This document shows, piece by piece, positions 3,968-53,393 of a DNA stretch of 64,000 nt. Position 1 is the first letter of the stretch; the number at the start of each line of letters is the position of its first letter. A program made the position numbers and the translations under genes. Source of the stretch: Watersipora subatra. Taxonomy: Eukaryota > Bryozoa > Gymnolaemata > Cheilostomatida > Watersiporidae. The stretch spans positions 12,964,764 through 13,028,763 of the forward strand of contig NC_088709.1 in the NCBI RefSeq assembly GCF_963576615.1, written 5' to 3'. The notes under the pieces were generated by a model, which saw nothing but the letters and a program-made list of their open reading frames with translations, searched no databases and was not told where the DNA came from.

Positions 3968-3985
3968 TTGGTAATGACCGACAAG

Positions 3986-11186: not shown

Positions 11187-11188
11187 AG

Positions 11189-14174: not shown

Positions 14175-14183
14175 GGCTGTTCC

Positions 14184-18540: not shown

Positions 18541-18549
18541 AAACCAAGT

Positions 18550-21869: not shown

Positions 21870-24800
21870 TCAATGTTTTGGACGGCACGAGTCGACAAGA
21901 TCATTGATACTCTCAGGTGATAGATTATTTCCTGGTTCCAACTTGAGATTGCCTATGCAAGTTCTTCCCTTCTTGGATAGCTCCTGTGCTAGCGGTTTCG
22001 CATAGCTGTCAGACAATTGGCACCCTGACAAATCTAAGTGATCTAATTTTAAACCCGCCAACGACTGCAAAGGGCTTCCCGTGGCTAACCAGGTACCACC
22101 GATAGGATTAGAACTGATATCCAAACATTTTAGATGACATTGAGGCTTGGTGATTGTACTCAAAAGATCTTTCCAGGCATACATCGTTATGTCCTTGTTC
22201 TGAGATAGCTTAAGCTCTTCTACATCTTCTCCATACAACATCAGCTTCCTTACCTAATAAAATACCAACATCTCTTTTACCTATTATATTGTTAAAATTT
22301 TACTCTTTATTAATTATGCTTGTGAAAACAATGCCTCATTAACTATCTTTAAATAAAACAGAAGTGAAAGAAAAGTCTGTTTACAAAAAATGCTCAACAC
22401 ATCTGAAATTGTGTTTTTTATGTAATGAAATAAACTTGATACATTCTAATAGATTTGTCAAATAATTTGTTGTAAATTTCAGTATAAAGATGTATTCACT
22501 ATGAAGATGTATTTTCTCATGTCTGATTAGCCAGTACATTCATTTGATATCTATTTACCATCCGTGACCATAATATCCAAGTTTTTCACAGAAACATTGG
22601 ATCTGAGTAACTAACAGGATTTAGGTAGCCAGTGGATCTACTGCAGCCTTAAACTATGCGTATTTAAACATGTCATTTTGCTAGCAGACTGCATCACCTT
22701 TTTATAGCGGGACTTAATATTCACATGACAAAAGATATCTACGAAGTTTGTAAACTGCCACTCCTAGGTATGAGTGAGAGATGACAAAGCACCGAATTAA
22801 GTGATCAATCGAGCCAGTATTTAATTTTGTTATTATAATTCTATAAAAATTAATGTTGAAGTGCTAGAAACTGTTTCAAAAGTTGTAATCAATAGCAGTT
22901 TTATAGTAAACCAATCACAAACTGATTTCTTTTACACTAATAAACATTGTTAACTGTTAAGTCAAATAACAGTTTAATATAAAATAGTTTTTTGCTAAAT
23001 GAGTGAAAATGTTCATGTAAACAAGCTGCATTATTATTTAATTTATATTACTTAGTAAATTAATAAGTAATAATGAATATCTGTAGTATTGATTGTATGA
23101 TAGTTTTCTAGCATAGCTATAACAACGTAACAGCCAGAGAATTTTACTGTCAGAGGTTTATTGTAAATGAACATCGGTATATCACTTCCTGTAATATACT
23201 AATCAGCCTGTATAATTAATAACTACCAATCAGATGCAGTATATTACATATGCATGATATTGAAATAGCTGACTCAGCAAGTACAAAGTTGGCCCCAAAG
23301 TTGCTTCATGTGATCAAGGTATTGAACACTTACCTTCTCACACGTTGCATTCCCGACCCCGCAGTTGGATAGGTCTAGAGTTTTTAGTGCTAGCTGCTTT
23401 AATTGGGTCTGCATCGGAGCCACCTCCGTGTCATCTGATCCTTCCGTGGCTATGGAAGCCAGTGAGTCAGACCTCACGGCATCTATGGAAACACAGATTA
23501 GATAGTGGAACTCTGACATTAATTTTGTCTGTGTGCAGTAGATAAGGCTTATGAAAGCCAACTCTATTGATAGGCCACTAAAATTAAACATTTTGATTTT
23601 GAATTAAAATTAAAACATTTCATTGTAATGGTTACGAACTTTTGATTTTGTTTTAGCCCAATCAAAATTTTTTTTACCACAGTAAGAAGAAATCTTTATG
23701 AGCTACAAAGCTGAGAATTATAATAACATGCAGCATGACATATTTTAAATCCCCTTTCCTATAGTTTGATCTCGGTAAAGGTTTTGATAAACATGCATAT
23801 GTTCATGATACTAAAACCTTTTTAATATCATGTCGATGTTTGATATGCATGTACATCAAAAATCGACTGAGTCTGAATGAGATCTGATTTGATTTTAAAG
23901 TTATATCACTGGCCAACGCCGACTGAATTAAAAAACTGCTTAATATTGCTGTGGCACTTTTTAGCCATAATATCTAAAAGTACTTCATCCAACATTCTAT
24001 TTAGATCTCACAACTCTTTCGCTACCGAAATAATTAGATTACCATAATTAAATATTTGGTAAACTTAACATTTAGCAAGGCTTCGTATACATTGTCATAA
24101 CATTTGAACCATACAGTGTATAAAAAATGTTTTGATATCAAATTCGTCAGCATAAAATCTTACACCACTGAATATCGCAAATAAAGTCACAAATGTGTTA
24201 CGGGATGAGCTCGGACACTTTTTCGGCCATTTTTGCTACAGCCGCGAGTATGTCCGAGTCAGTCAATCTATCAATATCATTACAGCTTACTGCATTATTA
24301 TTACTGCTACATATAAAATAGTTACTCCCAGTAGTATCATTGTTTAATAAAAATTACCCAAAGTATATGGATCTACAATTAGTGAAATCTTTGTAACTGC
24401 ACTGCATCTGACACAACTGGTCTTTGGAAGAAAAGATTGGGTGAAAAAATAATTCTTTTGCAAAATGAAACTACGCTCAAGATGGGTTGTAAACATCTTT
24501 GATATTGGCTTAACGCATGCAGATAATTGTTTTCTTTCATTTACAATGTAAGTACAAGTACGATAGGCTAGTTAATTAACTACTCACTAATAGGAAACAG
24601 CTTGTATGAAGCCTACTAAAGCCATACCAAGCGACTCTTGGTTATACGCAAACACCTTGCCAAGCTGTACTACGTGGCTCGTGGTAGCGAAAGAGTTAAA
24701 TTCATACCTACTGAAAGATCCATGGATATTGGCGGTACAATGCAGATACATAAACATAATAAAAATATTGTTCAAAAAGCTCAGTGCAATCATTTTACTT

Positions 24801-27800
24801 CAAGCTAAAATTTGGGGGTTTTTGATTTGTAAACAAGAAAGGGTTGTTAGTAGCAACTACTCTACGAGGTGAAGCGAGTGATTCTGTTAACTGTGTAGAA
24901 TAAGCAAGCTATAATCGATCCAAAGGGTAGTTTGAGAGAAAGCTATTCATGTTAAGAATATAGCTTGGGATCTACGGACAACATCTTTAAAGCTATTAGT
25001 TGTGTAGCGTCTAGTTATTCTTTGCATGTTATATTCTAACATAGCACTCACCTGGACCATAGACAATCCGTATTGAATCTTTAAAAACAAATAAACTACG
25101 TATAGATAGAGATTATTCGTATTTCTTTTTTTATTTGGTTTGTTTTTCAATTTTGTTTCACTTACAGTACATCCTCGAATATAAGCCGAGTTTGAAACTA
25201 AAAAAACAGTTACCAAACTAAGGGGTCGTCTTAAACGTGCATAACTCTGCTCCTACTAAAATAAAACATCATTATGCTAACTTAATTCCACCTTTATAAC
25301 TTGAATCATACTAAGCATACAGCTGGTAGCCCGTTTGTTTACAGTTTGTTTTATACCGTACTAGATGCACATGCAGCATGTCTGTCGCCACTTTACAACC
25401 GTGTCTCATCATTCACAATCTGCCATGAAGACTTTAAAACGTTTAAATGAACGATAAGATACTCTTCAGAAACACCGTATGGCGTCACAGCACCTGTCAT
25501 TATGGCGTCATAGCGCCTGTCATTATGGCGTCATAGCACCTTTAATTATGGCGTCATAGCACCTGTCATTATGGCGTCATAGCACCTGTCATTATGGCGG
25601 ATTGAATTCCGATTTTGAACTCCAAAAGCTTTATACAGTAGCCTATTTATTTTTAAACTTTAAAAGCAATACCATCGAAATAATAACTACATCCGGCTAA
25701 TAGTAGTTTCTTGTTTAAACCAGTCTGATACTTTGAGGTAAATGAAAAACTGTTTGAGAAAAGAGGTGTGGATGATGTCGCTCTGCCCAAAGGAAAGTGC
25801 AAAATCTAGGCGACATCAGCATTGCTTCGCCTGTACAAGGGTTAAATTTATTTCCCTAAAATTCTGATTGAGTGCTTGCGCTTGAATAAAAGCCACGTGT
25901 AAGGGTTAAAAAAAGCAACGATCTGTCTCATTTTGCCTCTTTTTGTCCAACTATTGTTTTCATGATAAGAGCATTGCATGCACACATCCATAGCAGCACT
26001 TGGTTAATAATAGTACGCTATGACAGCAATAACAGTTTTTGATTGATTTGGTCTTACACAAAATCGTTTGCGTGTTTACGCTCTTCACAAAACTTTACAT
26101 GCAGTTTATTTGCATTAATAGTAACATTAGAAAATTTGAAAAAATTTACTATTATTAATAAAGTAAAATAATGATAATGGCCATCATTTTCATTAATCCT
26201 CTTCTGCAATCTTTTGCTGTAACAAGTGTGTACATAGTGCTACAGTTTGTAGAGCTGGCATGTAATCAAATGTTTATAAATTTGCCATTTTATGGCTGTT
26301 TTTAGGGTCGGTTTATATCCGAGAATATACAGTGTGAGTGAAAAATAGTATGATACCAAATTGAATGAAAGTAAATGACAATTTTCTGTCCATAGTAAAC
26401 AAACGTCTTAACCTCTCATGAACAGACAATTTCTATGTTATAATAAATTTAGTCTACTGCGGTATAAACACTAGTTTGATGGAGATTGACAGTTTTGATA
26501 GAGATTGATAGAGAATGACAAAATAAGTTAGTTTGCAGTAAACTATTTACTGTATTACCTTTGATGCTTGTGGTGGCCAACTCCTTTGCTTGCCTGTGAA
26601 GATTAGAATTCAGAAATGCTTTCTCTGCACGAGTTGAAAACTCAGTGACTATGCTTGCCACAGCTGCATCTCTAAGATCTTCATTGTCTCTCAGTCTATT
26701 CAATGAGCGTGCAAAAGAAATGGCTGATATTAGTCTAACGCCCGGTACCGTAGGTGTATAAATGACAGATTTTAGCCTAATCTCTGATACCATAAGTGCA
26801 TAAAAACAAGGTCATCGCTAGTGTACATGAGTAATAGCTATACATTCATGGTTACTTTAATGACTTTAAGAAATATATTTTATTTTGACTTAGCTTCTTC
26901 AAACATATTTTTGACAACTTTCACGATTTTTAACATGACTTCGTAACACTGAGTGATCATTAAGCCAGCCCATCACTACCTGTGGTTTTTTTTAGTTTTA
27001 CATGAATATTGGCTTATATCGGTTTAATCTTTAGTTTCTGTCACATATTTGGTATCATAAGTCACTTAAACTGGAGCCTTTGCCCCCCCCCTACTTGAAA
27101 GGAGGTTTTGTCTAACGATTCATCACAGTTGATACCAAAAATTGTGAATACACATAAAGATTAAACTAAGAGAAGAGTACAGCACTTACGAGAATATTCT
27201 GAGTGTTGGAGCGTGTTTTGACACCATAGCGACCAAATGCTGCACATCATTGCTTGTGAGCTTACAGTCTGCTAATAGCAGCTCCTACAAGAAGTACATA
27301 GAGAAAGGTTGGCTCCTAAAAACTACACCTCAATTCACCAAATTCTCAGGAAAACCATATATTTTCATTGTCAGAATTTTGCGTCAGAGTTTAATAGAGA
27401 CAATAGCGATTCTAGTTAAATTTGTAGCCTTTTCATCATCTGTTAACTCAAACTAAGTTTTTGTAGGCGGATTCCATAGACTGCTGCTTATGTTCTATAA
27501 CTTAGAAATCTTATTGTTCCTGTACGGTGTTTATATTACCATGTCTGAATAGGAATATTTCTCCTCGACCAACTTTACACCTAAACATTTCTGGTCTTAT
27601 CGGTCCCTTCTAATCTTTCCTCTTTGCAATCCTTCATCTCGAACTTTTATTTTGCTACAGTAATCATGGACCCTAGTAATCATGGACCCTAATAATCATG
27701 GACCCTAGTAATCATGGACCCTAGTAATCATGGACCCTAGTAATCATGGACCCTAGTAATCATGGACCTTAGTGAGTTTCTCTCCTTTTGATTTGCATTG

Positions 27801-28173
27801 TTGCCTTTTTATTACTTCAACTTCTTTTGGACCTATCGCTTCATCATCATGTTCAGCCCATATCTGTTTTTCGCTGTCGACCAACCATTTGCTTACAAGC
27901 TCGAATGAAGGCTTCAGTATTTTTCTTCTAATATTATTTTAACTTGTTATTCATTTAACAGTATATTTTACAAACTTTTGTCAAACTCGTGTTTAATAGA
28001 TTAAAACCACCAGCATTGTGCTGTTACAAATGAATTCTTAAAGTTACCTCCAAGGATTCATTCATTTCAGTAGCGGCTGAGAGCAACTCAACTACTCCTG
28101 CCAAGTTACAATCCGTCAGCTTTATTGCTGTTGTCTTCATCTTACTTTTCAGTAGTGTGCAAAGCTTCTTTAC
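21870..28173 (-). CDS. ERICH3: Exons 22-26: second leucine-rich-repeat block and stop
   Basis: Repeats visible: KTTAIKLTDCNLAGVVELLS; LEELLLADCKLTSNDVQHLV; LKTLDLSNCGVGNATCEKV; VEELKLSQNKDITMYAWKDL; HLKCLDISSNPIGGTWLATG; LDHLDLSGCQLSDSYAKPLA; and the cap NLKLEPGNNLSPESINDLVD. Exons 24 and the first part of 25 are a non-LRR insert (SLRDNEDLRDAAVASIVTEF). Phases 0,2,1,0 agree. The last exon ends SCRPKH at the stop 21870-21872. The position-specific L, N and C residues are those of RI-type repeats. Confidence 0.88.
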
Positions 28174-31100: not shown

Positions 31101-34100
31101 ATTGACGTATATTTCTAACTATGCTTCAAAGTTTTTAATTGTCAATTACAAGACGGGCCAAAATATATTTACTGGTCAGAGTTTCTATTAAAATTAGTCC
31201 TATGCCATTATTGCATTATTGTTTGAAATTTAATAGTGGCTCACTTGCTGTAAGTTAGTGACTTGGGCAAATGGTTTTTAGCTGGCGCACACCCTTGCAT
31301 CATACGTGAGGTCTATAATCAGACGGATAATTCTGTTTGATTATGTAATAATTAGTATTGATCAACATCTACTGTTTGGCAATTATATTAGTCCCATTAT
31401 TACTGTTTGCACAGTGGTTTGGTGTAAACAAACAGCCGTATTTTTTGTGTCACTGAGAATATAATTTTTGCTACATGTATGCAACAGGAGCTGATCAGAT
31501 TGGGAGGCCACATCAGAAGAAACTTTTATAGAGTGTGCCAGCCATGAGGTGCATGCCAAAAGGCACATACAACTAGTGGGTGATATCATGTGTTGCGCTA
31601 TGTTGCCTTTTTGAATATAAGGCAGTTTTATTGAGGACTGCATGTTATTTTTTATTCCTAATCACAATTGAAAGCTCAGGGTTTCAGTGAAAGCGTAAGA
31701 AAGCAATAGCGAAAATAACAATGTTACTCTGTAAATAATAATAATAAATACTCTGTAAAAGTTACTCTGTTACAATAAAAGAAAAACAGGCTGAAGTCTA
31801 TCGACGAAAAAATTTTGGACTATTCACACAGCTTAATCAAAATTTAATTGTAAATGTGTAAGATTTTTTTCAGTGGCGCGCTCTTTGAGCATTCCTTGTT
31901 ACCATGGTTACTAATGGTCTGCTATACAAAGGGCTGGCAATCAAGACCTGGAAACATCAAGTGCTGATTGCTTTAATCTGAATACACTTTCTCAGCAGAG
32001 ACCCAATTTATTGCCATCTCATAAGACTGGAAATTTTGTGGTAGTCTCTGAGGAGGCTTCCTCAAACTTATAGATTGTTTAAAATTATGTAAAAGGAGTT
32101 TGTTTTTGCTACGGTTGCTTGGAGAAGACAGTTTGTTAAACAAATTATATGCTGTCTTACACCAATGACATACAGCTCCCCTGTATATCATTGCTTACAC
32201 GCAGTTTCTGCCAAAGTCAAACCATCAGGTGTAGGCTGCTCGGTGTGAGTTAACACACTTGTTATCAGCAGTTTGTTTTTAATAAAACAAAAACATACCT
32301 AAACAGATAGCTAGGTTATGAAGTCCGCCTTCAACGGTCTATGTGGCTATAACGGTCAAGAAAATACCTAGGTGAGGGTTGTGAAAGCAACTCCTCATCC
32401 GGTCGAGTACTTTGAAGGATTTCAGAACACGTAAATTTTATATACCCTAACTTAAAACGACATCCGAGCTTACTGCTGGACACTGTAAGGTGAAGTCTCT
32501 GATACGCCTTCACTCACCGAACTGTTTCCGTATTTTTATTCTGCACACGTATTTAGCGTGCAACTTACCTACTCCCTAACCTGCCTCCTAAGGCCCTAAC
32601 GTACCTACTCCATAATTTACCTACTCCCTAACCTACTCACTTCCTAACATACTCCCTAATGTACCTACTCCCTAACCAACCTACTCCGACACAGAGAACC
32701 ATCATTTTGGTGTAGAAGCTCATTTACTAAACTGAAATTTCCGAAGCTCTAAAATTTTTCATAAAAAATCTTGAAAGCTGCTGCATCAAACACTGATTTT
32801 TTGTGTGGTTTGTTAGTACCCATCTTCCAACTAGTGCAAAATTTCAAGTCTCTAAGTCCTATGTCACTTTTAGTTAAAATAGGTTTTTGGCTGTAGCATC
32901 CTCGATTAAACTAAAAAGGCTATAGAATATACTCTATGGCCCATCATTTTGCTGTCTTATCAAGCTAAATGTGTTAAAAACCTTTTCATAGTTGCCTATT
33001 AAATACGGTAATAGGTTGGCAACAAAACATAAATTTATTTGTGTAATGCGCTGTGACGTTCAAGATGTAATATGTTATTAAGAAGCACATTTAATTTTGT
33101 TTATCTGATTTTGTTAAATAAGGATATCACGCTTTTTTACCATGAGGTGATGAAGCAATGTTTTCTTGTGTTATACCGAAAGGTATCTTGTCAGACTTGG
33201 AAAGTATGTTTAAAAATATATCATGCCAGGAACCAGCATGAATAATATGTTCTGCTTGCATTTTATAATACATAGTAGGCGTTTTTCTTAACAAGGCGAA
33301 GGTCTTTCCTTTACAAAATGCAAGTAAACCTGTTTACTGATAGTTTTAAACACAAGACGCTGTAGAATAAATTGATATTATTGAAAACTCATAAAAAAAT
33401 TTTACAATGTATCAAACAATTGTAATAAATTTTAGTTTTTAGTAAGTTTTCATTTTTTTCAAATTTAGACAAATTTTAATTTTTTTCTCAAATTAATTTC
33501 AATGGTTATAGTAAAAATGATTTTATTTGATCAAAACTAATGCCATCCAAGCATTATACACACCTCATCCTGATTTAGGCCAACTAGGTGAATCTCAGAC
33601 CCACAATTTTTCAGAGATTCCTCTAATGAAGAACCTTGTGGCAGTCTAAGTTCACCTGCCGTGTCTCTAACATCTTCATGAAGACTTTCATCGCTGCTTG
33701 ATAATGTAAGTGAAGCTGCAAACCACAAACACAAAGCACAACAATTATAAGCCTTTTCTACTCACTATTCGCCATAATAAGAAGGAAGATAGGAAGAAAC
33801 AGAAGCACATGAAATACATGAATTGCTTGGTTGTTAAGCATTGAGCTCATATGCTGCAATCAAGCAATTCTTTGAAAGAAAGAATAGAAGAGTAAAGCCA
33901 TAACTAGAATACAGTGCAACTTTATACAACATTTATTGCAAGCGAAGCATTATTTCACACAGAAAATTATGTGGAAGCATCGCTGATATACCAATCATAT
34001 TGAAACAAGTCTAAAAACAACAACTGAGAGAAGATAATTAGAAATGTACAAAATTACTTGAAATGCTGCCATACAAATGTGTTAATTTTTTAAACAAATA

Positions 34101-40100: not shown

Positions 40101-43100
40101 TTTTTTGAGCTTGCTGATTGGATTGATGTTTTGGAATGGTGGGACTCTTCTGAACCATCCGACCTGATAGACCGCTGAGACATGTTGGAACTTGTCGACT
40201 TGTTTGACTTGGCTGATCGATCAGACCTCATGGAATCACTTGACTTGTCAGACTTATCGGATCTGTCAGACATTACGGAGTCTTTGGACTTGTGTGATGT
40301 ATCGGAGCGGTCGGACTTTATGGAACTTGTCGACTTGTGTGATGTGTCGAAGTGGTTGGACTTAATGGAACTTGTCGACTTGTCAGACCTACCGGATCGA
40401 TCTGACTTCTTGGAACCTTTTGACTTTTTAGACTTATCTGATCTGCCTGACTTTACGGAGCCTTCTTCATACTAAAAACCATAAACTGCGCTGTGAGAAT
40501 GACATAAGTGATCAGGGTGGTATGAGGCACTCAAAAGTGCAATAAGCCACCATATATTAAAATCTTAATCATTACTATTACTATTCAAGTACAAAGAAAG
40601 AGCCTTCAAGTGATCTCTTTTTTCATCATGTTTTGTACACTTTAAGATTAAGTCAGTAAAATCTAGTCTTCTTGATTCAGTCATGGTCTGCGGTATGGTT
40701 AATAAACTTCTTACGAATTTACTGTAAAAGACCTGAGGAATAGTCAAGGCTAATTTGTTCAGCAAACAGAAACTAATCAGGTAATTTTCACAACCATCAA
40801 TTTTAGTACAGCCGGTCAACGTAACCTTCTTGAAGATTTCCTAAGGTTTCTGATACACCAGACTGTTGACTTACTAAGCTTGTTCTTTGTTCTATGAATG
40901 ACTCTCGCGATTTAGTGGAGCTACCAGACTTTTTTGAGTTTTCAGACCTTCGGGAGTTGTCAGATCGGTCAGAACGTGCAGACTTTGATGACCTTGAGGA
41001 TGCACTACCATCTTTATCAGCTAAAAAGATGGAATCAAACTAAAAGAACAGAAAAGATAAAATGTAATTTAAAGCGTATTATTCGTCTTCAAAATCCACT
41101 CCAGAACCATCTATGGTAGTTTTAAATTTTTTTCTAATTTAGCAAGAATTTATGTAAATAAGGCAATCTAGCACCACGGCCATTAGGAAGGATGAGATAG
41201 ACTTCAGCTATGAACAAAAAATTTGAACGCAAATGTTTTATTACCTTCGCATTGCAACTTTTAACTACGTGGTGGATAGACAGCTGTAGGGCCAAACGTT
41301 GATTATTATTGTGCATTTATTTAGGCTTTACAACGTGAAAGCAAGAATAAGGTTAGACAATGTTTGAAAACTGAATTACTGAAGAAATACAGAAAAAACA
41401 AAATTAAAGAAAAGAGAAAACACTAATAAAAATATATACAAAGGGATATCCATAGACTAACCGGGCATATTGATGCATATGTTGCGAGTAAAGAGTATTG
41501 CAGTGAGTAAAATAGGTGAAGTGTGCTTAAATTATAGGATAAGAGCTGATCAATCTTAGAAAAGAAGCTGGAAATGTGAGGGAAAGCACAATGATTTAGG
41601 CCTGCCACCATACAAACCAGCTTTTGGGGACGATGTCTTGGCAGCATTTTTTGCAGGTGAATCCCTGCTCATGCTTTCCAAATAGTGCTCAACAATCTCT
41701 TTAGTAGTGACTGGAGTGAAACACATAATGGTCGTTATTAACAGTCAAGAACTGTAATGTTGACCTCTAGAGTTTAGTCTTAATCGGTATTAAACGGAGA
41801 ACAACATATTTTTAAACACTAGAGGTATTTTAGTTTTGAATTCAAAGCGTTGCTTTTATGTCTTACTGGTAATGTATCACAAATTTTAACGGGTATTTAG
41901 CACAGTATTGGGACTTGGCATTAGAGATCATCCGGGATAAGAAGGAAAGTGAAAGGCAATTACAACTAAGCAGCAAGGAAAACTGAGGCTAGTGACAGTA
42001 CTCTCTAAATATAAAGACAGATAGCCTTAGATATCATTACATGTGGATATCCTATCGGGTAGCATTACCCTACGCAACATAAAATTAACATTCCATCTAA
42101 AATTTATATATTCATTTTGACCAATTAACGATGCTTACACAGCATGTGTTATAACCGTCATAGTATTGGAAGTTTGTATTGGTAAAAAGAATCACCACAG
42201 CACTTTTTTTTAGTACCTTGGCTTTTTAATGATAGAACCATAGACCTATTAGATATATTAACTATACTGTTAGCTATACAATTAAGTATAGTTAATAGGT
42301 CTATGGATAGAACTAACACAAATAATGGAAACCTCTACCAACTTGACCCTTTTGCTAATGATCTCATACAGCTGGGAAATGCCCATCGCATCAAGCCAAT
42401 TTTTAGCTTATTTGTGCCGTCGACATGGCTGCATGAAAGCTGTAATACCTTACATCAAAATTGCAGTAGATACCTAGATTATTATGCATATGAAAGTTAA
42501 GAAACTTGTATACAAGCTCGCATTCTTTTCTTGTAGATAGCTTGCAAAGATTTGAGTTCAAACAGGCTTACATGGGTTTGGTACGCTGGAACAGGTCCCT
42601 TGCTTTGTTATAGTCGGAACAAAAGAGGGTTAAGTTTTCAGAGAAGTTAGCGTTAAAGTTGAGAACTTTTATAATATAAACTTTTGTTTTGATTAGGCCT
42701 ATTATAACTCACGATCTAAAAAGGATGTACAAGTTTTTATTTTTAAGGTTCAACCTACTTTCATCATCACTGTCCTGGATTGCAATCTCAACAGGATGTC
42801 GAGACGACAGACTTCCTTCCCTTTTGTCACTTCGGCCCAATGAGGACTGAGATCTGGGAGGCTCTGAATCTGACGCAGTCCCAGTTTTTGGCTCCAGATC
42901 ATCTTCATAGCTCATTATCTTTAATAATAATGGATGCTTTCACAAACTCTTCTAACTTGTTAATGAACAATAAAGGATATCTTTATAAAGTGGTACAACA
43001 TCATATCAATCATATCAATTGATTATCTATTTATTTCATAGAGCTTTGGGAAGGCGGTTATTGAAGCTTGAAGCGTAGATGAAGAAAGGCATGAACTTAG

Positions 43101-46100
43101 CCTATTACATGTACTAGAATCAAAGTCTACTACTAAACTATATTTGTTTGGATTGTATGCAACTGTGTTAACATGTTACTAGTGAGGCATACAGGTCTAG
43201 CATTTTTCAAGCTCATATGAAAAAATTCCATACAATTAAACAAAAATAGGTTATCGCGTATTTATTTGAAAAATGGTGATGTGTAAATATGTAGTGAAAA
43301 AATTTGTGACTCAAAGGAAAATTTAGAGCAAAACAAGAGCTAACCTCTCTTGCTGTCTTGTCATTGTCATCATCATCCGAATAGCTCTGCTTAGTTGTCT
43401 CCTCGGTCAATTTGACTTTGGTAATTGATTTCTCACTTCGACTTGATTTGTTACTAGGTGACTTGGAGTTAGAACTTCTTGCAGACTTGGTCTCTTCTCT
43501 GTCTGTCTCATCGAAATCATCTTCATATTTTTCCTCCTTCTCTGCATCGCTTTCCTCGAAGTCTTCATCATACTTATCTGCAATATATTACAAACTTCCT
43601 TCAATTCTCTAATAATCGCTTTACCATGCTATATATTTAAAACCAAAATTTTGGCTCGAAAAAAGAGCTAGTGCGCTTTCCTGCTTAAATATAAGACACG
43701 AGCCGACAAGTTTTTCAAAAGTCCGCACGTAAAAGTCAGCACCATGTTAGGCTGATAAATTGACACTTTGCAAGTTTATGACCTATTGGCATAAACTCCA
43801 TTATTGTTTACAATTAGGTTTCGCCAAAATCTACATTTTCAATTGTATATTGATTGCAAATTGATAGCAACCATAAAACGACTCTTGTATTATTTGAGTT
43901 ATCTTCCTTATTGAGTGAGAGACAAATCCAAAGTTTTCCTGACATTATGTTCAACCAACAGGTATATACAATCATAAATTTAGTGGTCAGATGTAAAACA
44001 GAAAATGTTGAAAAATATTTTTCTCTTCTGTGCATTACATGTATATTTTGACCACCAATGTCTCAATTTTGAACTTCCTTTTTCAGGTTTGCTCCTTAGA
44101 GTGAACTTTGATTGTGTCATCTAGCATGAGAAACAAATGTTTTATATCAGTATAATAAACTTGCCCAGAATATTAAAGCTACCACTGTTTAACGTCATTC
44201 CCTTTTGTTTAATCAGTGCTAATTAGTCTTAGTAGTATTATTATTAATTATATAATATAAATTATATATTTTATTATTAATCTAAATACATGTATATTAA
44301 TTTTAGGCAGACCTTCTGCTGCCTCCTCCTCTTTCTTAGCCTTTTGCTTTCTTTCTTCCCGTTTCTTCTGCTCTTTATTAGCCTCTCTGGAGAGTTCTTT
44401 CTCTACTTTGCATTTGTAACAAGGTTCAGCGCCTTTGACTCCCACAAAGAGAAAATGACTTGATTTGCTGCCAAGAAGGTTACCCTTGCTGTGCTTGTAT
44501 TCGCAGCATGTGCTCACTGTGGCATCTTGGCTGCCATCTATGTAGAGAGTCAGTCCAAATGGATAACCTCTGTGCCGCTTGGATGTGAAACTGAAGTTGG
44601 CTACAACATTATAATAACATTAATATTTATTAATATCATTATAAAACTTGCGTACTGACAATTGATCTGATTATCGCCACGTACCTCAATCATGAAACTT
44701 GACCTAATTATCGATTACTGTTAGTTGACCTCATTATTAACAATTGGTGGTCTAATTCAAGTTATGTATGAGAAGGATGTGGAAGAAGATAAATCATGGC
44801 TATTGTTGATTTTACTTGTCAAACAGTAATTAAAGTATTCAATGAATCTTATACTACAGTACTGCCGGTCCTTTTCTTTCAGGGTTTATCTAATGTTGTT
44901 TTGCAATGTATTGGAGCCAGGCGTATAAAGCCTCTCAGTAGCCAGGTAACGCACGAAGCTGGAATGCTTCTACAAGAGCCGAATGTGACTATTGAAAGGC
45001 ATATTAGCACGGAGTGTAAAACTGCACTTTTCGGGTACTGCAAAACCTTTATTTGAAACCATATCGGATTTAAACCTTTGTGACTTTGAATCGGAGTGTA
45101 GTTCTGATGATTGTGACAATTGATCTATTTAGGTCACGAAAACTATAGCAACCACAATAACAACAATGAAAGAACTAATTGTTACTTATGTAACCGAGTT
45201 GTTATTAGTACGATTTTGTTGACAATTTTATACTGATCACTTTTATTACGGGTTCAAAAAGATCAAACATAATGACTGTCACAGTGGAGGTCTAATAGAG
45301 GTGGAGTTCAATTAAAGGGTGCCACTGTGTTTTAAAACTCCTAGTGATGTGGCGTTCAAATAAGTTTTGTGGTATATGTACATCGCCATAGCATGAGTTC
45401 TTTACCGAGGCTATTCTCATAGTTCATACGGCTTCGGTTAGCATTTAGTATTTTTATATATCAGAACTTGGTAAACAATAATTATATTTGTTCAAACAAA
45501 GCTTAGCTCTTTTAGATTAGCATGTTATTGATTTCACAAAAGGCTGCTAAAGGCTATTAAATATTTGCCATAGGTTATTAGATCTCTGGTAACCTATGGC
45601 AGAAATCTGTCATAGCTTGAAGACAAACTTAAGCAAAACATTAGTAGGTTTTATCAGAAAGTATCAGTATTGTTCTGTTATTTCCAATTTTTTTAATGTT
45701 TGATGTGATCTGACTGCCAGGATGTTTCAAGATTAAAATCGACAAAACTTGATCGCGGTTAAAAATGCACCTCCAAAAATGACTTCAGTCAGTAGTCGGG
45801 TTTCCTATTTGTCCTTTTCTCCCTATCTGGTACAGGTTATGAACAAGCAAAGCACACATTCCAAATCCCTTGAGTTACATTAACGCTGCTTGTTAATAGT
45901 TAGATATACTATGGATGTACTTATAATTATTGCTTCTGCTTTTAGACAACTCCAAATACTCGATAGATATGGATTGCCAAATCCAAATAGTTATATGATT
46001 GCTATTGCAAATGTGATACTCACATTTGGGCTTGACAAATTCTTTGAAGACTGTCAGCGTGTTTCCCCCGCAGTGCTGCTGTTCGACTATGATCTGCTGC

Positions 46101-49100
46101 TGCATCTGGTGATTGTAGGTACCGCCAAGGTACTTCAGTGTCACCTCACAGAATGTCTGCACTTCCTTCTCATGTTTGAAAGCTGGCTCCTGTCTGTGCA
46201 GGATTACTCTGCCCTGTTGTAGCATGTCAGAATAATTTGAGATTCTGTCCACATTAATGTTTAAAAATCATCTAGATGCAATGCTGGTCGCATGATGTAT
46301 ATTTCTGTGAGCTCTGACCAAAAAAAAAGTTTGGCAGGTTTAAATGACAAATGTGAAGACCCACAGAGGTAAAATTAAACCAATAAGTCAAAGATTTGCA
46401 GGTAATTAAAGGCAAATAGAAATGATCATTAAGGATTACACAACAAAATCTCGCTATTAGAGTTGGCTAGTACCAGTTACTAGTACTGTAATATTAACAG
46501 CAAATACACAACTTGCTAGTACTGGCTTGCATTACATTTGTATTACCCTGTAGGCTTGTACACGCATGTATACTGTATTACTATGTAGGCTTGTACATGC
46601 ATATACACTGTATTACACTGTAGGCTTGTACATGCATGTACGGTATTGGACTGGAGGCAGTCTGTTCATAGATGTTTAAATTATTTGTACTAGTGGCCTG
46701 GCAGTTCAATGCGCTGAGAGAGGTTGTCAGATGTAATGTAATAACTATGTGCATAATTGTTCTGAAATATGGCAAGGCAGTTGATTGACACAGAGGAGGG
46801 AGTGTCGGTCTACCAAGCTAAGAGTTTGAATTCTGCTGAAAGCGGAGATTGTTATCCTATCTGGATCTGTTTTCAGAGGATCTGTTTTTTAGAGGATTTG
46901 TTTTTCAAAGGATCTGTTTTTTAGAAGATCTGTTTTTTAGAGGATCTGTTTTTAAAAGGATCTGTTTTTCAGAGGATTTGTTTTCCTAACTTCTGAGTGT
47001 TGCTTCGAACAGACAGCTGAACGTGGCTCTTCTCATAGTAAAGATTGTACTGTATCTAGTGAGCGCGTAACTTACCCTAACATGTTTTTTCATCACAATT
47101 GGTCGACCGTGTTCATCTCTAGGAGTTCCTGGTGGAGGCTTTTTAGATGGAGGATTGGGTGTCCAGGCTAAAGGTGGTTGGGGTTCATAATCATTGTCCA
47201 TATCGTTGGTATAGGGAGACCTTTGATGTTGCTTCTTCTGTAAAGAATATATATTAAGGTGAGAAACAAACGTAGATTACCATGAATGCTGCCTTCTAAC
47301 ATGCTACCTAAGTGTAACCAGATAATGACAATTTTGTGAACTACAATACATCACAACACTTCTTGGCTATTGCTGGAAAATGTTATTACAAAAGGTGTTT
47401 GCATCCCCTTTGTAATATTTTGGTAAAAAGTTACAGAAATAAATTGCATAGATCTATACAATCATTTCAGTTTCCAACCTTTTTATATGTATTCATTAAA
47501 CCGAAACCCAGAGAGGTATGACTAATGAATGGTAAAAAGAATGATCAATATTGTGTACGATAGGTCGATAGCTAGAGTTGCCTTCTCCTGCTCAACATAT
47601 CCACCATGACAGAGATATTCAACAAAATATGCTCGTTAAATGAAGACACCAGAGAAGTAGTATACTTACCCGTTCCTGAGAAGAGGCTCGGTGCGGAGTG
47701 ATGTGGTGACCCTCTCTCACTGACTCACTCGACTCTGTGTCAAATGAGGATGACCTTGAACCACTCCTTCGTCTCCTTTCGCTGTACACAATCATATAGT
47801 ATATAAGCTATATAAATATGTCTAAATGCCCTTAAAGCTGATTATTGTTATTAGATATTTGCTGTTTAAAATACTCCAATCGCGTCTCCAATCTGCCTGA
47901 CGATCAATTACATTCCTGCTCCGCCAAAAAATCTACACCTTGTAACTGACACCAACACCTTACCGATTTACATTATAAAACACCACTATACGAAAAAAGC
48001 GTTTTCTTTCAATAAACATAATTCACTTTACTACTTTTCATTTTTGTCTCATGGCCTAATTTGCTTTAAAATTAATAACCGGTGTAAATAAAGTTAATGT
48101 CTATCTAAACCTAATTTCTGACTAAATGCCTAATTTACTCTCAATACAGTTTGTAGAGGAATAAAGATCATGCTAGTACAAGACTTCTAAAGCTTACTCA
48201 TCTACACCCAAGTATGCTCGTCATACCCAATAATAAATCAACGAATGAGAGAAACTTTAAAAGGTTGGTTCAGATCTCTGTGAGCTCAGATACATCGAAC
48301 CTGTAGCTGCCTACTTGTACTTAAACTGAATTACTGCCAGCAAACCTATTTATATGCTCTCTGACCTTGAACGTGAACGAGGGCGCCTTTCAGATGCGCT
48401 GTGGGAACTATACAGTCTTTCATTTCTTCCACCTGAATCATGTCTCCTTCCCTGTTCACCATCACAAACATGATTACACACAAGTATGATTTAACTTGCC
48501 TTCTTATAAAACAAGAATTTCCAGCCATAGCAAGCAGACTGGATACAATGAATGAGATATGAAAGTAACTCTCCCACTGCTGTCACCAGCTCTACATTTT
48601 CTACTATAAACAGGTATATTTGGAGTTGTCTAACCGTTCAATAGTCTTATTTGCTTTAACATATTAGACCTGAAATATTTGACATGTAAACATTCCTCTA
48701 GTTTGCTTTGCTCTTGATTTTAGCTAGAAAGCACGTTGCAATATTTTAAACATATCAGTTACTTAAAATGGTAGATTAAATCAATACTAATGAGATTAGA
48801 GATATCTTATGTCACACACAACACACAAGTTCTCTAAATATATGAGACTAGCAGTAGGACTGGCCATGCCAGGATTTGTTTCATTTTCAGTCAGATAGTC
48901 AGCAGCAGCGTGTTTAAGGGACTGATTCTTAGGAACAAGATGGAGTTTTCAAATTAAATATTTTAGCTATCTAGCGGAAGGCACGGAGCATATGCATGTG
49001 AAGTTTGGATAAATATGGCACAAACTGTAAACACATGCTGAAAAAGTGATTTATTGATAATGTCATGACTTGATATATATTATATATAATATATTATGAT

Positions 49101-52100
49101 ATGCTAATATATTATAATTTAATAATATATATAATATATTATAATATATTATAATATAATAATATATTATAATATAATAATATATTATAATATAATAATA
49201 TATTATAATATAATAATATATTATATTATAATACATAATATATTTTCCGTATATAATATATTATAATATAATATACGGAGAAATGACAAATATAATAGTA
49301 GTGTAGTAAAAAATATGTTAGAATATATGAGACTCGCTTGTATATTCTCTAAATATATGAGTGCGTCTTCATCTGTTTGTAGTGTGTAGTCTGACTGTCT
49401 ACTACTCTGTACACCAATCCATCAACCTATTTTTATTTTGCATAATCAAGTTCTAACTTACTATTGCTTGAGAGTCTGGTTATAAAGTTAGGGAACGTAC
49501 CAGGAGCCTGTCTTGCCTGCTTTTCCTAGAAGCTCTATCAACCAGTGGAAGGGATTGAACACTTCTCACAGACTACAAGTTTAACATAGAAAGCTATAGT
49601 TAGTAATTTCTGTCGCTTCCAATTGCTAATCAAGTTTTTATTTAATATTTCTCAACTTGTATTGTCAGAAATGGTGATATGTGAAGCATCGCAGCTTGTT
49701 GTGCATGCTTGAAGTCACTTGTTATCAAAGTATGCAGAAAGTTTGAGAGCTCATTGTAAAAGAATGAAATTTGTACTCTGCAAAATAAACTTTTTGAAAA
49801 TAATGTTGAATTAGAACGTTGGTATTAAAAACCGGTGCGCCATTTGCGATGTGCCAGTGGAAAAGTTATATTCTTTATTTTCCTTCTGAAGAGCCTATTT
49901 AGTCATTTTTTTCTAATTATTTTCTAGACATTCTCATCAATCTGAATTAATTTAAATTTCTATCATTCTCTTACTCACTATTACTCTGAAATATACTTAC
50001 ATCTGTCCATAAACACAGGACATAGACACATGAATTAGTATGTGGATTATGATGATGGATTCGAGGGTGTTTACGGACAGATGTAAGTATATTTCAGAGT
50101 AATAGTAAGAGAATGATAGAAATTTATATTGATTCAGATTGATTGATAAGAATGTCTAGAAAATAATTAGAAAGAAATAAATGAATAGGCACTTCAGAAG
50201 GAAAATAAAGAATATAACTTGTCCACTGGCAAATCACAAATGGGGCACCGATCTTTGATACATTGGCAGTATCGTGCACTTTGAGAGATCATTCAGTTAA
50301 ATATCTGCACAATTATTGCCAATGAATCAAGGCGGGTGCATGATGCAGTTGGTAGAGTGCTTCGCTGAAAGGCCAAATATCTAGGTTCAATTCCTGTGAG
50401 GAGCAATATTTTTTCCTAATGCTCTTAGCATGGCTTCGGACAGATAGACACGGCTTTTATTATAGTTAAGACTAGATGAACGCCCGAATAATAAAAAAAT
50501 CTTCACGCAGACAACTTATTTTTATTTAACATATACAACATTTACTATTCTAATTTTTAAACTTAATATTGGGAGAAAAGTGTTTTTGTGAAGTTCAAAC
50601 AAATTAAGTGAAAACATAAATGATGAATACATGATGGTGAGTGTATGAAAAAAGGTTCCTGTCGCAGCAGAAGCTCATCGTATTCAAAGTTTTGATGAAC
50701 GAGTAATAAAAAAGCCTGCGCAGAAAACTTATTTTTATTTAGCATGTACAACATTTACCATTACCATTACCATACTGCTACCTACTCGATACCGGTACAA
50801 AAAAATGAAATATCGCACTTATTTGTCTGATACTTCGTCTGACTGAGCGGAAAGAAAATGTAGAGGCATTTCCTACTCTAGATAATACAATTGCCCACGT
50901 GAAAAGTATTTAGCTTTTACAGATTTACCAAAACCGGGAAAATGAATGTAATGGCACATTTGAAAATTACAGATTAAAAAAAAGGTACAAAAAGCTTTTT
51001 AAAAAATTATAAAAAAAAAGAAATGCAAAAAGGTAATAATAATTAATAATATAAAGTGTACATTCAGCGTGTGCAATTTAAAAAATATTTTCCTGCAGTA
51101 TATGGTAAGAGTAATGGGAATGGTAAAAGTAGCTTAGCCTTGTGGTTACACGCGATTGTTAGTAGACTTGCGATTTGAAAGTCGTGAGTTCAAATCCAGT
51201 AGGAAAGCGATTTTTCGTGCAACAACTTGATCACTATAACTCAATCGCTGTAACTGGACAGATGAAAGACAAAGACTGAGATTATATGTATATAGATGAA
51301 AACTGGAATGACCTGTTCAGTAATAAGACCGCGTTGTGGCTTAATCGATTGTCATGATAATCGTTTGCTTGGATTATAGAGTGAGTTGACTGATTAAGGC
51401 TTTTGTAAAAGAGCATTAGTAATGTCACTCTTTGTCTGCACCTGATCAGCCTAACCAAATACAATGTCTATAAACTGTACGCTATTCATAAAGCTAACAT
51501 ATCAATAATGGTATAACAACAAACAGCATAAGTGGGCGACTGACTAGCTTGGTTTTTCTATGAGTTCAACAGGGTGATGAAAAAGGAAGGCAGTGCCATA
51601 TGTAGCCTTTTACCAATTCTCTCACCGCAACAATGGCTGCTTAGATTTTAGTGATACTGCATTTTTATCTTTACGCCATGTACAAACCAAACAATAAATT
51701 AGATTTTGTTTATCTGTATCCTAGCAATCATCACTAATCTTAAAGGCTAATAGCATTCTCAAGTGTGTCAAATACTGCAGCTATTACAAAACTGAATAAG
51801 GGACAGCATGAAGTGGTTATTATTGATGTGAGTTCAATTGACAGTAAGGAATTAATGCTCTCTCTATTGGGAGGCTTGAAAGTATGATACTGGTTTAAAC
51901 TGCAAATTAAACTGTCAATTAAAGCAAGCAATCTAATCATATCCTAAAAATGAACATACATCACGGCGACGGCTCCTCACTTCACTAGGTGATCTGAGAA
52001 GATCCATTATTGTGTCCTCGTATCCAAACTTCCTCTCAGCCTGCAATGATCAACAAAACTTGTTCGACTCTATAGATCAATATGGTAGCTCCGTGTTTTC

Positions 52101-53393
52101 ACTGACAAGAACTTTATTCCATACTACTAAAGCAAAACATTTTAGTGGTTGATGCAAAATGTAAATCCAGGAAAGTTTTGAGCCGTGTAACTATTTTTAT
52201 TACCGTGCAAGCGGTAAACAAGGCAGGTGTTTAAGACGGTGGTTCTCAATATCTAGACAAAGATTTGAAACCAAATATTTTTAACAATCTGGCCTAAGAA
52301 ACAGAGTAGATGCTTGTGGAGGTTTGGAGGAATTTGGTCAAAAAATGGGAAAACATTTAGAGTTTATAAAGAGTAACAACCCCACACCTACACACAATGA
52401 TAGTGGAATTTATAGCAACTACAAAGGCATTGAGGTATCAGTGTAGAAACATGTAAACACCTCGTACATGTGAAAGTCTACTTGTGGCTACTTGTTGTAG
52501 CAAAAAGAAGCGTAATTGTAATAAACAATGAGTTTTTCTTAACTAACCCTGACTTTCTTGACAAGTTCAATTTTACGAATCTTTTCGAGCCGATTCCTTA
52601 TTTCCGCCTGCCTCATTCTTTCAATGTCAAGAGTTTTGTGGACAATCGCTTGTGCCAACATGTTGCGCACTTCTTTGCGATGGTTGGCTTTAGCATTTAA
52701 CAGCCTGTATTTACTTTCTGAAATTACCACTCCTTTTCTTGAAACCTACAAACAGTTGATTCTTTGCAAACACAAATTCTTAATAAATCAGAAAAGTAAA
52801 CAAATGCGCAGTTTATTGTTTTTAAATCTGCTTATAGGCTTGGTAACCTACTTGACAACTTGAAAACAACTTACAAGCTTAGACTTTTTCAGATGTTTCC
52901 TGATGTGTGTATTGCTGAAATATCCAGAGAGATGTGGATCTAACAGGCTGTTGTAGGTGGCCAAAGGGCTAAAAGCAAGAGTTGTCATATTTAGTAAGAA
53001 ATGCAAAAATTAGACAGTTATTGAGTGCTTATTATGGTTCATAAAATTTTTTTTTGATAATCTGCAACAACGATTTCTAAATTTTATATTATGCGTTGTG
53101 TTCTTATTATCGTTGTCTAAAAAACTGACCATAATCCCTACAAAGAACAAACATGTACTTGATACTCTAGCAAAGCTTTGATGTAACAATTTACATGACT
53201 TGGTGTAATAGCTATAATTAATGATAAAACTTATTTCAACTTAAACGTATGAAGCACATTGACAGTGTGACGCGTAGCTACAAGCTAAGCTATCGAAAAA
53301 ACATACCTACTATACGGTTGCAAAGCTTTACTATGTTCTTCAATTTAAATAGAAAACTCTGTATTCAACTTACCCTTCGTGAACGTGACTCAT
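21870..53393 (-). CDS. ERICH3: ERICH3 (DUF4590) - leucine-rich-repeat fusion protein, 26 exons
   Basis: Coding exons in order: 53374-53393, 52875-52968, 52548-52745, 51960-52040, 48366-48451, 47670-47781, 47076-47237, 46024-46213, 44313-44600, 43345-43577, 42759-42918, 41618-41710, 40875-41020, 39863-40471, 38860-38991, 37329-37420, 36470-36576, 36089-36180, 35045-35921, 34784-34915, 33564-33715, 28048-28173, 27190-27284, 26559-26695, 23334-23482, 21870-22253. Intron phases 2,0,0,0,2,0,0,1,1,0,1,1,0,0,0,2,1,0,1,1,0,0,2,1,0 all agree, giving 4,947 nt and 1,648 residues. Residues 1-131 and about 270-378 match vertebrate ERICH3. Residues 825-1073 and about 1340-1648 are RI-type leucine-rich repeats; Ser/Asp/Lys/Glu-rich linkers lie between. 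ERICH3 has been linked to primary cilia in mammals. Donors of exons 9, 10 and 20 (GTCTGC, GTTAGC, GTTAAT) are weak, and a missed small exon in the 5.4-kb intron 21 or 3.5-kb intron 4 is possible. Confidence 0.85.
22254..23333. other. Intron 25, no further feature
   Basis: AT-rich intron between the last two exons. I see no additional exon, RNA gene or repeat boundary in it. Confidence 0.5.
24129..24312 (+). repeat. Interspersed repeat copy, intron 24
   Basis: Shares ordered blocks with the inverse of 62705-62892: TTTGATATCAAATTCGTCAGCATAAAAT, then CTCGGACACTTTTTCGGCC, then ATTACAGCTTACTGCATTATT. Blocks are separated by diverged spacers of similar length. Similarity may extend outward, but I cannot set firm ends. 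Confidence 0.7.
25165..26332. mobile_element. Non-autonomous DNA transposon with imperfect inverted ends
   Basis: The left end CAGTACATCCTCGAATATAA GCCGA is the inverse of the right end CTGTATATTCTCGGATATAA ACCGA (read on the minus strand). No transposase is visible. The element lies in intron 24 and encloses a 5-copy 23-bp tandem repeat (25478-25599). Its superfamily is uncertain; the ends and size suggest a Tc1/mariner-type derivative. Confidence 0.65.
25478..25599 (+). repeat. 23-bp tandem repeat, five copies
   Basis: The unit TATGGCGTCATAGCACCTGTCAT starts at 25478, 25501, 25524, 25547 and 25570, with a partial sixth. Only single-base changes separate the copies. Each unit contains the half-palindrome GGCGTCA. 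Confidence 0.95.
27661..27772 (+). repeat. 16-bp tandem repeat, seven copies
   Basis: TAATCATGGACCCTAG is repeated seven times with two single-base variants. It lies in intron 22, between exons 22 and 23. Confidence 0.95.
28477..29422. mobile_element. TA-flanked MITE-like DNA transposon
   Basis: The left end is CAGTAGACGCTCCTATAACT; the right end, read inversely, is CAGTAGGCGCTCCTACAATG. Both are flanked by TA, the target of Tc1/mariner (IS630-type) transposases. Internal short words CCTATAACG / CCTATAACGTAAA occur near both ends. There is no transposase frame in the 946 bp. It lies in the 5.4-kb intron 21. Confidence 0.8.
29423..33563. other. Rest of intron 21, no gene seen
   Basis: Long AT-rich intron sequence. 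A degenerate CCTACTCCCTAA repeat runs from about 32565 to 32690. No exon-like segment with LRR or Ser-rich coding was found, although a missed small exon cannot be excluded. Confidence 0.45.
32565..32690 (+). repeat. Degenerate CCTACTCCCTAA tandem repeat
   Basis: Phrases such as ACCTACTCCCTAACC, TTACCTACTCCCTAACC and ACATACTCCCTAATG recur irregularly. The unit is about 12-20 bp and copies are diverged. Confidence 0.75.
33564..34915 (-). CDS. ERICH3: Exons 20-21: acidic linker, second LRR entry
   Basis: Exon 20 is Ser/Thr/Asp-rich (TTKTTSSDDDDIDTDTDDQA). Exon 21 begins SLTLSSSDESLHEDVRDTAG and ends with an LRR-like start, GSEIHLVGLNQDE, which continues in phase 0 into exon 22. These exons connect the two leucine-rich-repeat blocks. 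Confidence 0.82.
35045..38991 (-). CDS. ERICH3: Exons 15-19: first leucine-rich-repeat block and linker
   Basis: Repeats of about 28-30 residues: LMKLAMPACGLNSQEFTEIA; PLQELDITDNKIELSGGLAL; SLRLTGTDITPVGVSPVLQA; RLTSLYLSNCTVGETLNPGD; LKQMAISHITTDSLRMLCEA; VVINNLSLINNHLTDDSITA. Alternating strand LxxLxLxxN/C and helix parts resemble ribonuclease-inhibitor-type LRRs, which usually bind other proteins. One intron falls at nearly every repeat, the usual gene structure of such arrays. After GEPETDATTS, exon 19 turns into a long Ser/Glu/Lys-rich region (SEKTDSEKEDSEKTVSEKSD) of about 180 residues, probably disordered. Confidence 0.88.
38491..38730 (+). mobile_element. SINE-like element, copy 1
   Basis: Starts GTACTAGTACCCTGGCAGAC and ends CTCTTATTATAGCAAAGATT. 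The middle GGGCAGATGGTAGCGTGCTTG followed by ATCCAGGTTTGATTTTCG resembles the A and B boxes of a tRNA-derived promoter (GGTTCRA-type B box). It shares this layout with 46688-47046 and 50257-50470. It lies in the intron between exons 15 and 16. Confidence 0.72.
39863..43577 (-). CDS. ERICH3: Exons 10-14: acidic and Ser/Asp/Lys-repeat tail
   Basis: Exon 10 starts DKYDEDFEESDAEKEEKYED, like the KYEYEEDFE segment after DUF4590 in vertebrates. Exons 11-13 are Ser-rich (LEPKTGTASDSEPPRSQSS; SASSRSSKSARSDRSDNS). Exon 14 (609 bp) is built of SDRSDKS-type units. It closes with a less repetitive stretch, SFYKLSTALAMECSRTGDKL VVKGCMGT, that leads into the LRR block. Joins have phases 0,1,1,0. The composition predicts a disordered, highly phosphorylatable linker. 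Exon 14's GTAAGT donor, in phase 0 with the first LRR exon, is the key evidence for the fusion. Confidence 0.85.
42238..42305. repeat. Short imperfect hairpin
   Basis: CATAGACCTATTA on the left is answered by TAATAGGTCTATG on the right, with a second matching pair TTAACTATACT / AGTATAGTTAA inside. It lies in intron 11, close to but not inside an exon. Confidence 0.6.
44313..46213 (-). CDS. ERICH3: Exons 8-9: DUF4590 core
   Basis: Exon 8 contains VTLKYLGGTYNHQMQQQIIV then EQQHCGGNTLTVFKEFV, matching the YLG...QQHCGG signature of ERICH3. Exon 9 joins in phase 1 and gives SFTSKRHRGYPFGLTLYIDG, then CCEYKHSKGNLLGSKSSHF and GAEPCYKCKVEKELS. The conserved CCEYKH-KG-LG and PCYKC motifs suggest a compact Cys-containing fold of unknown chemistry. 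A Lys/Glu-rich coiled segment (EANKEQKKREERKQKAKK) follows, as in the vertebrate protein. These two exons are the strongest evidence for the ERICH3 identity. Confidence 0.95.
45037..45372. mobile_element. TA-flanked MITE, short copy (336 bp)
   Basis: The left end is CTGCAAAACCTTTATTTGAA; the right end, read inversely, is CCACAAAACTTATTTGAACG. Both are flanked by TA. Internal sequence such as GTAGTTCTGATGATTGTG, TATAGCAACCAC and TACTGATCACTTT matches the longer copy at 58961-59854. It sits in intron 8 of the ERICH3-LRR gene. Confidence 0.8.
46530..46650 (+). repeat. ~40-bp tandem repeat
   Basis: TGTAGGCTTGTACATGCATG occurs three times with CTGTATTAC spacers. It lies just left of the SINE-like copy 2. 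Confidence 0.8.
46688..47046 (+). mobile_element. SINE-like element, copy 2, expanded
   Basis: GTACTAGTGGCCTGGCAG at the start and CTCTTCTCATAGTAAAGATT at the end correspond to copy 1. Between them, 46862-46985 is an added tandem array of GGATCTGTTTTTTAGA-type units of about 18 bp. The array explains the greater length. It ends about 30 bp from the exon 7 donor. Confidence 0.65.
47076..48451 (-). CDS. ERICH3: Exons 5-7: Arg/Ser- and Pro-rich linker
   Basis: Exon 5 (GRRHDSGGRNERLYSSHSAS, RRPRSRS) and exon 6 (SERRRRSGSRSSSFDTESSE) are RS-rich and probably disordered. Exon 7 is Pro-rich: YEPQPPLAWTPNPPSKKPPP, then GTPRDEHGRPIVMKKHVR. Vertebrate ERICH3 has a comparable Pro-rich linker before DUF4590. 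Phase 2 then 0 joins these exons cleanly. The acceptor of exon 5 (GAACAG) is the least certain border. Confidence 0.75.
49074..49285. repeat. Palindromic AT-only tract
   Basis: Runs of ATATATTATAATATAATAAT repeat with a period of about 20 bp, bounded by CCGTATATAATATA / ATATACGG words. It could extrude hairpins. No gene is present. Confidence 0.9.
49833..50250. mobile_element. Fold-back element, 184-bp inverted arms
   Basis: 49833-50016 and 50067-50250 are near-perfect inverse copies, starting CGGTGCGCCATTTGCGATG and ending CAAATGGGGCACCG. A spacer of about 50 bp separates them. No protein is encoded. Similarity may extend some bases beyond each arm. The right side abuts SINE-like copy 3. 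Confidence 0.85.
50257..50470 (+). mobile_element. SINE-like element, copy 3
   Basis: GGCAGTATCGTGCACTTTGAG, CTGCACAATTATTGCC, ATGCAGTTGGTAGAGTGCTTC, TATCTAGGTTCAATTCCTG and TTTTTCCTAATGCTCTTAGC follow the same order as copy 1. The B-box-like GGTTCAATTCC is well preserved here, which supports tRNA-derived ancestry. Confidence 0.7.
51131..51260 (+). repeat. tRNA-like repeat, possible second SINE family
   Basis: TAGCTTAGCCTTGTGGTTAC is A-box-like and GTCGTGAGTTCAAATCCAGT is B-box-like, at tRNA spacing. The sequence cannot be folded into a full cloverleaf by eye, so I treat it as a SINE head rather than a tRNA gene. Confidence 0.45.
51960..53393 (-). CDS. ERICH3: Exons 1-4: conserved ERICH3 N-terminus
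   Basis: Exon 1 holds only MSHVHEG before a GTAAG donor; vertebrate ERICH3 likewise starts MSHSHP. Exon 2 reads PLATYNSLLDPHLSGYFSNT followed by HIRKHLKKSKL. Exon 3 continues VSRKGVVISESKYRLLNAKA, NHRKEVRNMLAQAIVHKTLD and IERMRQAEIRNRLEKIRK. Both correspond residue by residue to the ERICH3 start (YNSL, GYF-NT, IRRHL, AQAI-HK-LD-ER). Exon 4 is a short charged exon, FGYEDTIMDLLRSPSEVRSR. The segment is predicted helical and basic; its biochemical role is unknown. The start is chosen on the MSH match and the consistent donor. Confidence 0.92.

Follow-up and report, generated by a model that had tools for sequence, protein, structure and literature searches.

Does one gene at this locus join an ERICH3-type protein to leucine-rich repeats (LRRs), or do two neighbouring genes on the same strand merely read as one? 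And if there is a single gene, how might its two parts have come together? Little is understood of ERICH3, a ciliary protein, and the first-pass annotation of the 64,000-nucleotide stretch of DNA analysed here (the window) had described such a junction. From the arrangement of exons and domains we consider it probable that one gene joins an ERICH3-type head to two LRR blocks. A stand-alone sibling of the first LRR block lies downstream of that gene and bears both on its integrity and on its possible origin.

Results

Gene structure

Rebuilt by hand from the sequence, the probable ERICH3-LRR gene runs on the minus strand from 53393 to 21870, the last base of its stop codon. It comprises 27 exons whose phases agree at all 26 junctions and which together give a frame of 1,650 residues with one stop (Table 1). 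The span and the single in-phase frame had been recognised in the first-pass annotation and stand, whereas its 26 exons, 25 junctions and 1,648 residues had to be revised. Arithmetically, the earlier figures correspond to an exon 4 extended to the donor at 51959 (seven residues more) and the omission of micro-exon 25 (nine residues fewer).

Phase agreement on its own is weak evidence, because the exon edges were picked to fit. A gene-finder that was free to end and restart genes returned one gene of 24 exons; its codon statistics came from these very exons, and the first exon it gave was wrong. Splice-site scores are low at the exon 19 donor (75th percentile) and the exon 18 acceptor (68th percentile), and the nearest AATAAA past the final stop lies 925 nt downstream. 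The 5' end is well placed, because a divergent WD40-repeat gene, which we take to be PLAA-like, starts with an ATG at 53813, about 420 bp from the start codon in exon 1. One of the four scanned pieces of this neighbour lies above the Pfam cut-off for WD40, and the two genes perhaps share a promoter.

Table 1. Exons of the probable ERICH3-LRR gene and neighbouring features, in window coordinates
Feature	Position	Strand	Remarks
exon 1	53374..53393	-	start codon, MSHVHE..; donor AGG/GTAAGT
exon 2	52875..52968	-	ERICH3-like N-terminus
exon 3	52548..52745	-	ERICH3-like N-terminus
exon 4	51981..52040	-	alternative donor 51959 likewise in phase
exon 5	48366..48451	-	
exon 6	47670..47781	-	
exon 7	47076..47237	-	
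exon 8	46024..46213	-	DUF4590, first part
exon 9	44313..44600	-	DUF4590, second part
exon 10	43345..43577	-	acidic stretch, then Ser/Arg/Lys-rich
exon 11	42759..42918	-	second codon is ATG
exon 12	41618..41710	-	skippable without loss of phase
exon 13	40875..41020	-	SRSDRSDN-type repeats
exon 14	39863..40471	-	SDKS repeats, then start of LRR block 1, same frame
exon 15	38860..38991	-	LRR block 1, 132 nt
exon 16	37329..37420	-	LRR block 1, 92 nt
exon 17	36470..36576	-	LRR block 1, 107 nt
exon 18	36089..36180	-	LRR block 1, 92 nt
exon 19	35045..35921	-	end of LRR block 1, then SEK-rich linker
exon 20	34784..34915	-	linker
exon 21	33564..33715	-	linker and start of LRR block 2
exon 22	28048..28173	-	LRR block 2
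exon 23	27190..27284	-	LRR block 2
exon 24	26559..26695	-	LRR block 2
exon 25	25052..25078	-	27-nt micro-exon, optional; exon 24 to 26 in phase too
exon 26	23334..23482	-	LRR block 2
exon 27	21870..22253	-	LRR block 2, stop codon
divergent WD40-repeat gene (exon pieces only)	53813..61001	+	separate neighbour, head to head
retroelement frame	3209-3985	-	DUF7047 (Pfam)
retroelement frame	9852-12043	-	PHD finger and endonuclease (Pfam)
retroelement frame	13656-16812	+	zinc knuckle, DUF7047/RT-like, integrase (Pfam)
retroelement frames	17639-20000	-	RT-like by eye; no Pfam match in the two scanned

The ERICH3-type head

The DUF4590 domain that had been proposed for the head is borne out by Pfam (PF15257), which places it at residues 279-384 with an E-value of 4e-38 and 130.3 bits against a cut-off of 27, covering positions 7-112 of the 114 in the profile. 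Throughout the 784-Mb genome (239 contigs), the only DUF4590 match at E<=0.001 is that of the window gene. The N-terminal region before DUF4590 matches no Pfam profile. Exons 2-3, which we take to resemble the N-terminus of vertebrate ERICH3, are matched in full at the window gene alone in a search of the organism's own genome. In the PDB, the best match to the N-terminus has an E-value of 0.52, and thus no significant relative was found there, and DUF4590 as a query returned nothing at E<=10.

As a separate observation, a second ERICH3-like N-terminal stretch occurs at C4:48964406-48964534 (L035), with 44% identity over residues 10-52 and an E-value of 7.1e-4. This stretch has no Pfam match at E<=0.01, and the sole DUF4590 match of the genome lies elsewhere.

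Collections of other sequences yielded little that resembles the head. Against viral contigs, the N-terminus gave 17 pattern matches and no confirmed one, and DUF4590 exon 9 gave 19, of which one was confirmed. The latter (L023; 56% over residues 19-54) was treated as chance; its E-value of 9e-7 holds within the candidates only and becomes 0.002 against the full protein, and what is held in common is a short YIDGSQDA stretch. Against the genome_contigs collection, the same exon gave 78 pattern matches, none of them confirmed.

Two LRR blocks

Pfam identifies LRR_6 repeats in the whole product (9.1e-12) and in each block separately, with 30.6 bits for block 1 and 41.4 bits for block 2, both above the cut-off of 23.4. 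Block 1 begins late in exon 14 and finishes in exon 19, and block 2 begins late in exon 21 and finishes in exon 27. About 400 residues separate DUF4590 from block 1, and about 270 lie between the blocks in our exon model.

Both blocks had been described as being of the ribonuclease-inhibitor type, and comparison with PDB sequences agrees. Ribonuclease inhibitor is the best of the 54 distinct sequences that match block 1 at E<=1 (7.4e-11). Among the 16 that match block 2, entries titled leucine rich repeat protein, presumably designed proteins, come first (3.2e-7), followed by ribonuclease inhibitor (6.6e-5). An AlphaFold2 model of exon 27 alone has a mean pLDDT of 39.4 and is uninformative on a horseshoe fold. 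Beyond the window and the sibling gene described below, the genome holds two weak matches to block 1 (C2:75335632, E 0.07; C7:15990858, E 0.74) and no second copy of block 2, for which one weak match was obtained (C3:66304312, E 0.31).

Might the two blocks have arisen from one another? The intron phases 0, 0, 2, 1 recur at junctions 14/15-17/18 and 21/22-24/25, and an EPGN motif closes both blocks. Aligned over their first 170 residues, the blocks score 60, which is reached by 1 of 1000 shuffles, and aligned as a whole they score 80, which is reached by none of 1000; the register differs between the two alignments. The score of the sibling against block 2 is reached by 31 of 1000 shuffles. 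Taken together, these likenesses are suggestive only of an internal duplication.

A stand-alone sibling downstream

Querying the genome with block 1 located a match at C2:12953936-12950167, which belongs to a sibling LRR gene (C2:12956017-12950059) on the same strand, 30.6 kb downstream of the window gene's end. Frames in the intervening gap look retrotransposon-derived, judged by Pfam for those in the window and by eye for the rest. The exons of the sibling measure 144 (14'), 132 (15'), 92 (16'), 107 (17'), 92 (18') and 414 nt (19'), with intron phases 0, 0, 2, 1, 0, and exons 15'-18' are identical in length and phase to exons 15-18 of the window gene.

The two proteins share 40.9% identity over 296 aligned codons, whose first, second and third positions agree at 54.7, 67.6 and 37.8%, which is the pattern expected of a protein under selection. 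Homology also covers the end of exon 14 (ANxxxxLSxxxxxxCSRxxD), reaching some 20 residues beyond the LRR on its upstream side; the score is equalled in 3 of 2000 shuffles when the final 35 residues are compared and in 20 of 2000 when 74 are. Because the same exon lengths and phases are found at two diverged loci, the 14/15 junction recurs at both; the sibling locus thus offers independent support for this junction.

The sibling protein begins with MGCQAS, has 326 residues and ends after the equivalent of block 1. At its start ATG (C2:12956017), positions -3 and +4 are A and G, and the frame is closed by a stop four codons upstream. In contrast to the window gene, the sibling contains neither DUF4590 nor block 2; it has its own start codon, and therefore the LRR module exists as a stand-alone gene too. 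It falls below every Pfam cut-off (LRR_1, 19.7 bits against 20.6), and two of its exons scanned alone match no family; its assignment as an LRR protein therefore rests on homology to block 1.

Two repeats were noted at this locus. Directly behind exon 14' lies a 40-bp minisatellite (C2:12954767-12955848; L021:3-1084) with 27.1 copies in the scanned part, which runs on into L020, where further copies are seen by eye. Its consensus corresponds to the 3' end of exon 14' together with the 5' splice site (TTTCG/GTAAGT), so that the array forms a row of many donor-like sites. In addition, the final portion of exon 19' is repeated in tandem at C2:12949604-12949798 (L029); the copy has 60% identity, and similar sequence continues past its stop.

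One gene or two

The passage from head to LRRs is made at exon 14. Its junction with exon 15 (40471-39863 and 38991-38860) is as the first-pass annotation had it, in phase 0 on both sides, with the donor ACA/GTAAGT and the acceptor TTCAG. With exons 11-16 left out of its training, a codon model scores the 5', middle and 3' parts of exon 14 at 34.7, 47.5 and 8.7 bits. A TTTTTAG acceptor, with a stop directly adjacent, marks the exact point at which the frame opens, and 66 codons pass before the first in-frame ATG, so that an upstream exon is required. Exon 15 is preceded by two open codons with no ATG among them. A 45-bp tandem repeat lies within exon 14 at 40186-40416, and the DNA of this exon has no match among phages. 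From such features the 14/15 fusion junction appears well supported and the whole exon chain reasonably so, and we infer a continuous transcript from exon 1 to exon 27.

Conceivably, the long transcript might be accompanied by a shorter product that contains the LRR part only and arises within exon 14, from an internal promoter or from a start such as Met 781. As the sibling demonstrates, the position at which block 1 starts can serve as the beginning of an LRR gene; the sibling protein begins 17 residues before the common ANxxxxLS motif, and the window gene has an ATG 7 residues before that motif. Exon 14, however, is open for 166 codons before Met 781 and is coding by score, and therefore an internal start could give only an extra product, which we regard as unlikely.

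The weakest links of the chain are junctions 10/11 and 13/14, where two same-strand neighbours might meet. One would be an ERICH3 gene whose end falls behind exon 10 or, in a less simple version, within exon 13; the other, with a start for example at the ATG of exon 11, would encode the Ser-rich linker and both LRR blocks. At the first of these junctions, there is an ATG at 42915 behind an acceptor that reaches only the 80th percentile of AG sites, poly(A)-like signals occur at 43035 and 42925, and an AATAAA lies about 180 nt past the stop met on reading through exon 10. That read-through, however, comprises 43 codons at -33.1 bits and is thus non-coding, exon 10 has a good, in-phase donor (97th percentile), and AATAAA or ATTAAA occurs here at a background of 1.17 per 500 nt. 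A motif at the border of exons 11 and 12, which we take to resemble human ERICH3, also counts against a separate second gene.

At junction 13/14, reading through exon 13 to the stop at 40803 adds 23 near-neutral codons (+2.3 and -0.3 bits), the exon 13 donor and exon 14 acceptor lie at the 89th and 75th percentiles, and the likeness between the repeats of exons 13 and 14 is weak (42 of 1000 shuffles), that between exons 10 and 13 being absent (283 of 1000). Against an end in exon 13, no AATAAA or ATTAAA falls within 500 nt of its read-through stop, and exon 14 could not supply a start in its first 66 codons. Even with the precedent of a stand-alone LRR sibling, a pair of genes strikes us as decidedly improbable, and the single ERICH3-LRR gene is the reading we carry forward.

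Discussion

How might the gene have arisen? We envision that the LRR module was duplicated at the locus, such that one copy would stand alone with its own start and the other would be joined to ERICH3. The order of these events is less obvious. Coming close to an even chance is a history that begins with an old fused gene, of which the LRR part was later copied incompletely to give the sibling, which gained a start codon. The sibling lies on the same strand with the same phases, and the rest of the genome yielded no further DUF4590 or block 2, as this order of events would have it. Against it, the MGCQAS start, whose ATG context is a good one, looks like a settled N-terminus.

The first-pass annotation had considered an ancestral architecture lost in vertebrates or a lineage-specific fusion, and the sibling adds a possible third history, in which an LRR gene was duplicated beside ERICH3 and one of the copies was captured. 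Tentatively, and with more doubt than confidence, one may picture a tandem LRR pair beside ERICH3, the near copy of which came to be read into as its 5' region turned into a Ser-rich linker exon. The LRR block would then have doubled within the gene to give a scaffold that offers two binding surfaces in cilia, and the far copy would still be alone, perhaps tied to the membrane by a lipid on its MGC start.

The bacterial, archaeal, virus and PDB collections yielded no relative able to decide the origin of the fusion, and no report of an ERICH3-LRR fusion was found in the parts consulted of the ERICH3/C1orf173 literature (including PMC6848114 and PMC10299642). If junction 14/15 proves common to other invertebrates, vertebrates lost a binding module; if it is not shared, the locus records a datable fusion of genes by which a domain was gained, and the donor module still has a copy next door.

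What might such a protein do? LRRs are repeats that proteins use to bind other proteins. The product would be a modular scaffold, in which an ERICH3-type head, made up of the N-terminal region and DUF4590, is followed by a long Ser/Arg/Lys/Asp-rich linker and a ribonuclease-inhibitor-type LRR block, and then by another linker, this one Ser/Glu/Lys-rich, and the second LRR block. Binding of partner proteins would fall to the LRR blocks, and the linkers would give reach as well as sites for phosphorylation or other modification. By analogy with its human counterpart, the head would place the protein in cilia; we propose this role because human ERICH3 is itself ciliary, and is described as affecting ciliary transport and Hedgehog regulators in the parts of that study drawn on here (PMC6848114).

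The LRR_6-type repeats found here also occur in RNH1, NLRP14, LRRC34 and radial spoke protein 15, which block 1 matches in the PDB at 7.4e-11, 2.5e-5, 3.7e-4 and 3.1e-4, respectively. This is likeness at the level of repeats, and no one orthologue stands out. To our knowledge, none of these ribonuclease-inhibitor-type proteins carries DUF4590 or an ERICH3 head. On the side of the head, the N-terminal region is presumably of the same type as that of human ERICH3, and we assume that the acidic and Ser-rich stretches after DUF4590 are likewise common to both proteins.

DUF4590 itself is present in both, whereas the two LRR blocks are a feature of the window protein. Human ERICH3 (C1orf173) has 1,530 residues with a 113-residue DUF4590, the only domain named in the portions of its description used here, from whose main text the term "leucine-rich" is absent (PMC6848114). 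An LRR-bearing form of ERICH3 suggests what vertebrate ERICH3 may need to bring in from elsewhere, and a natural two-part version for comparison is provided by the stand-alone sibling.
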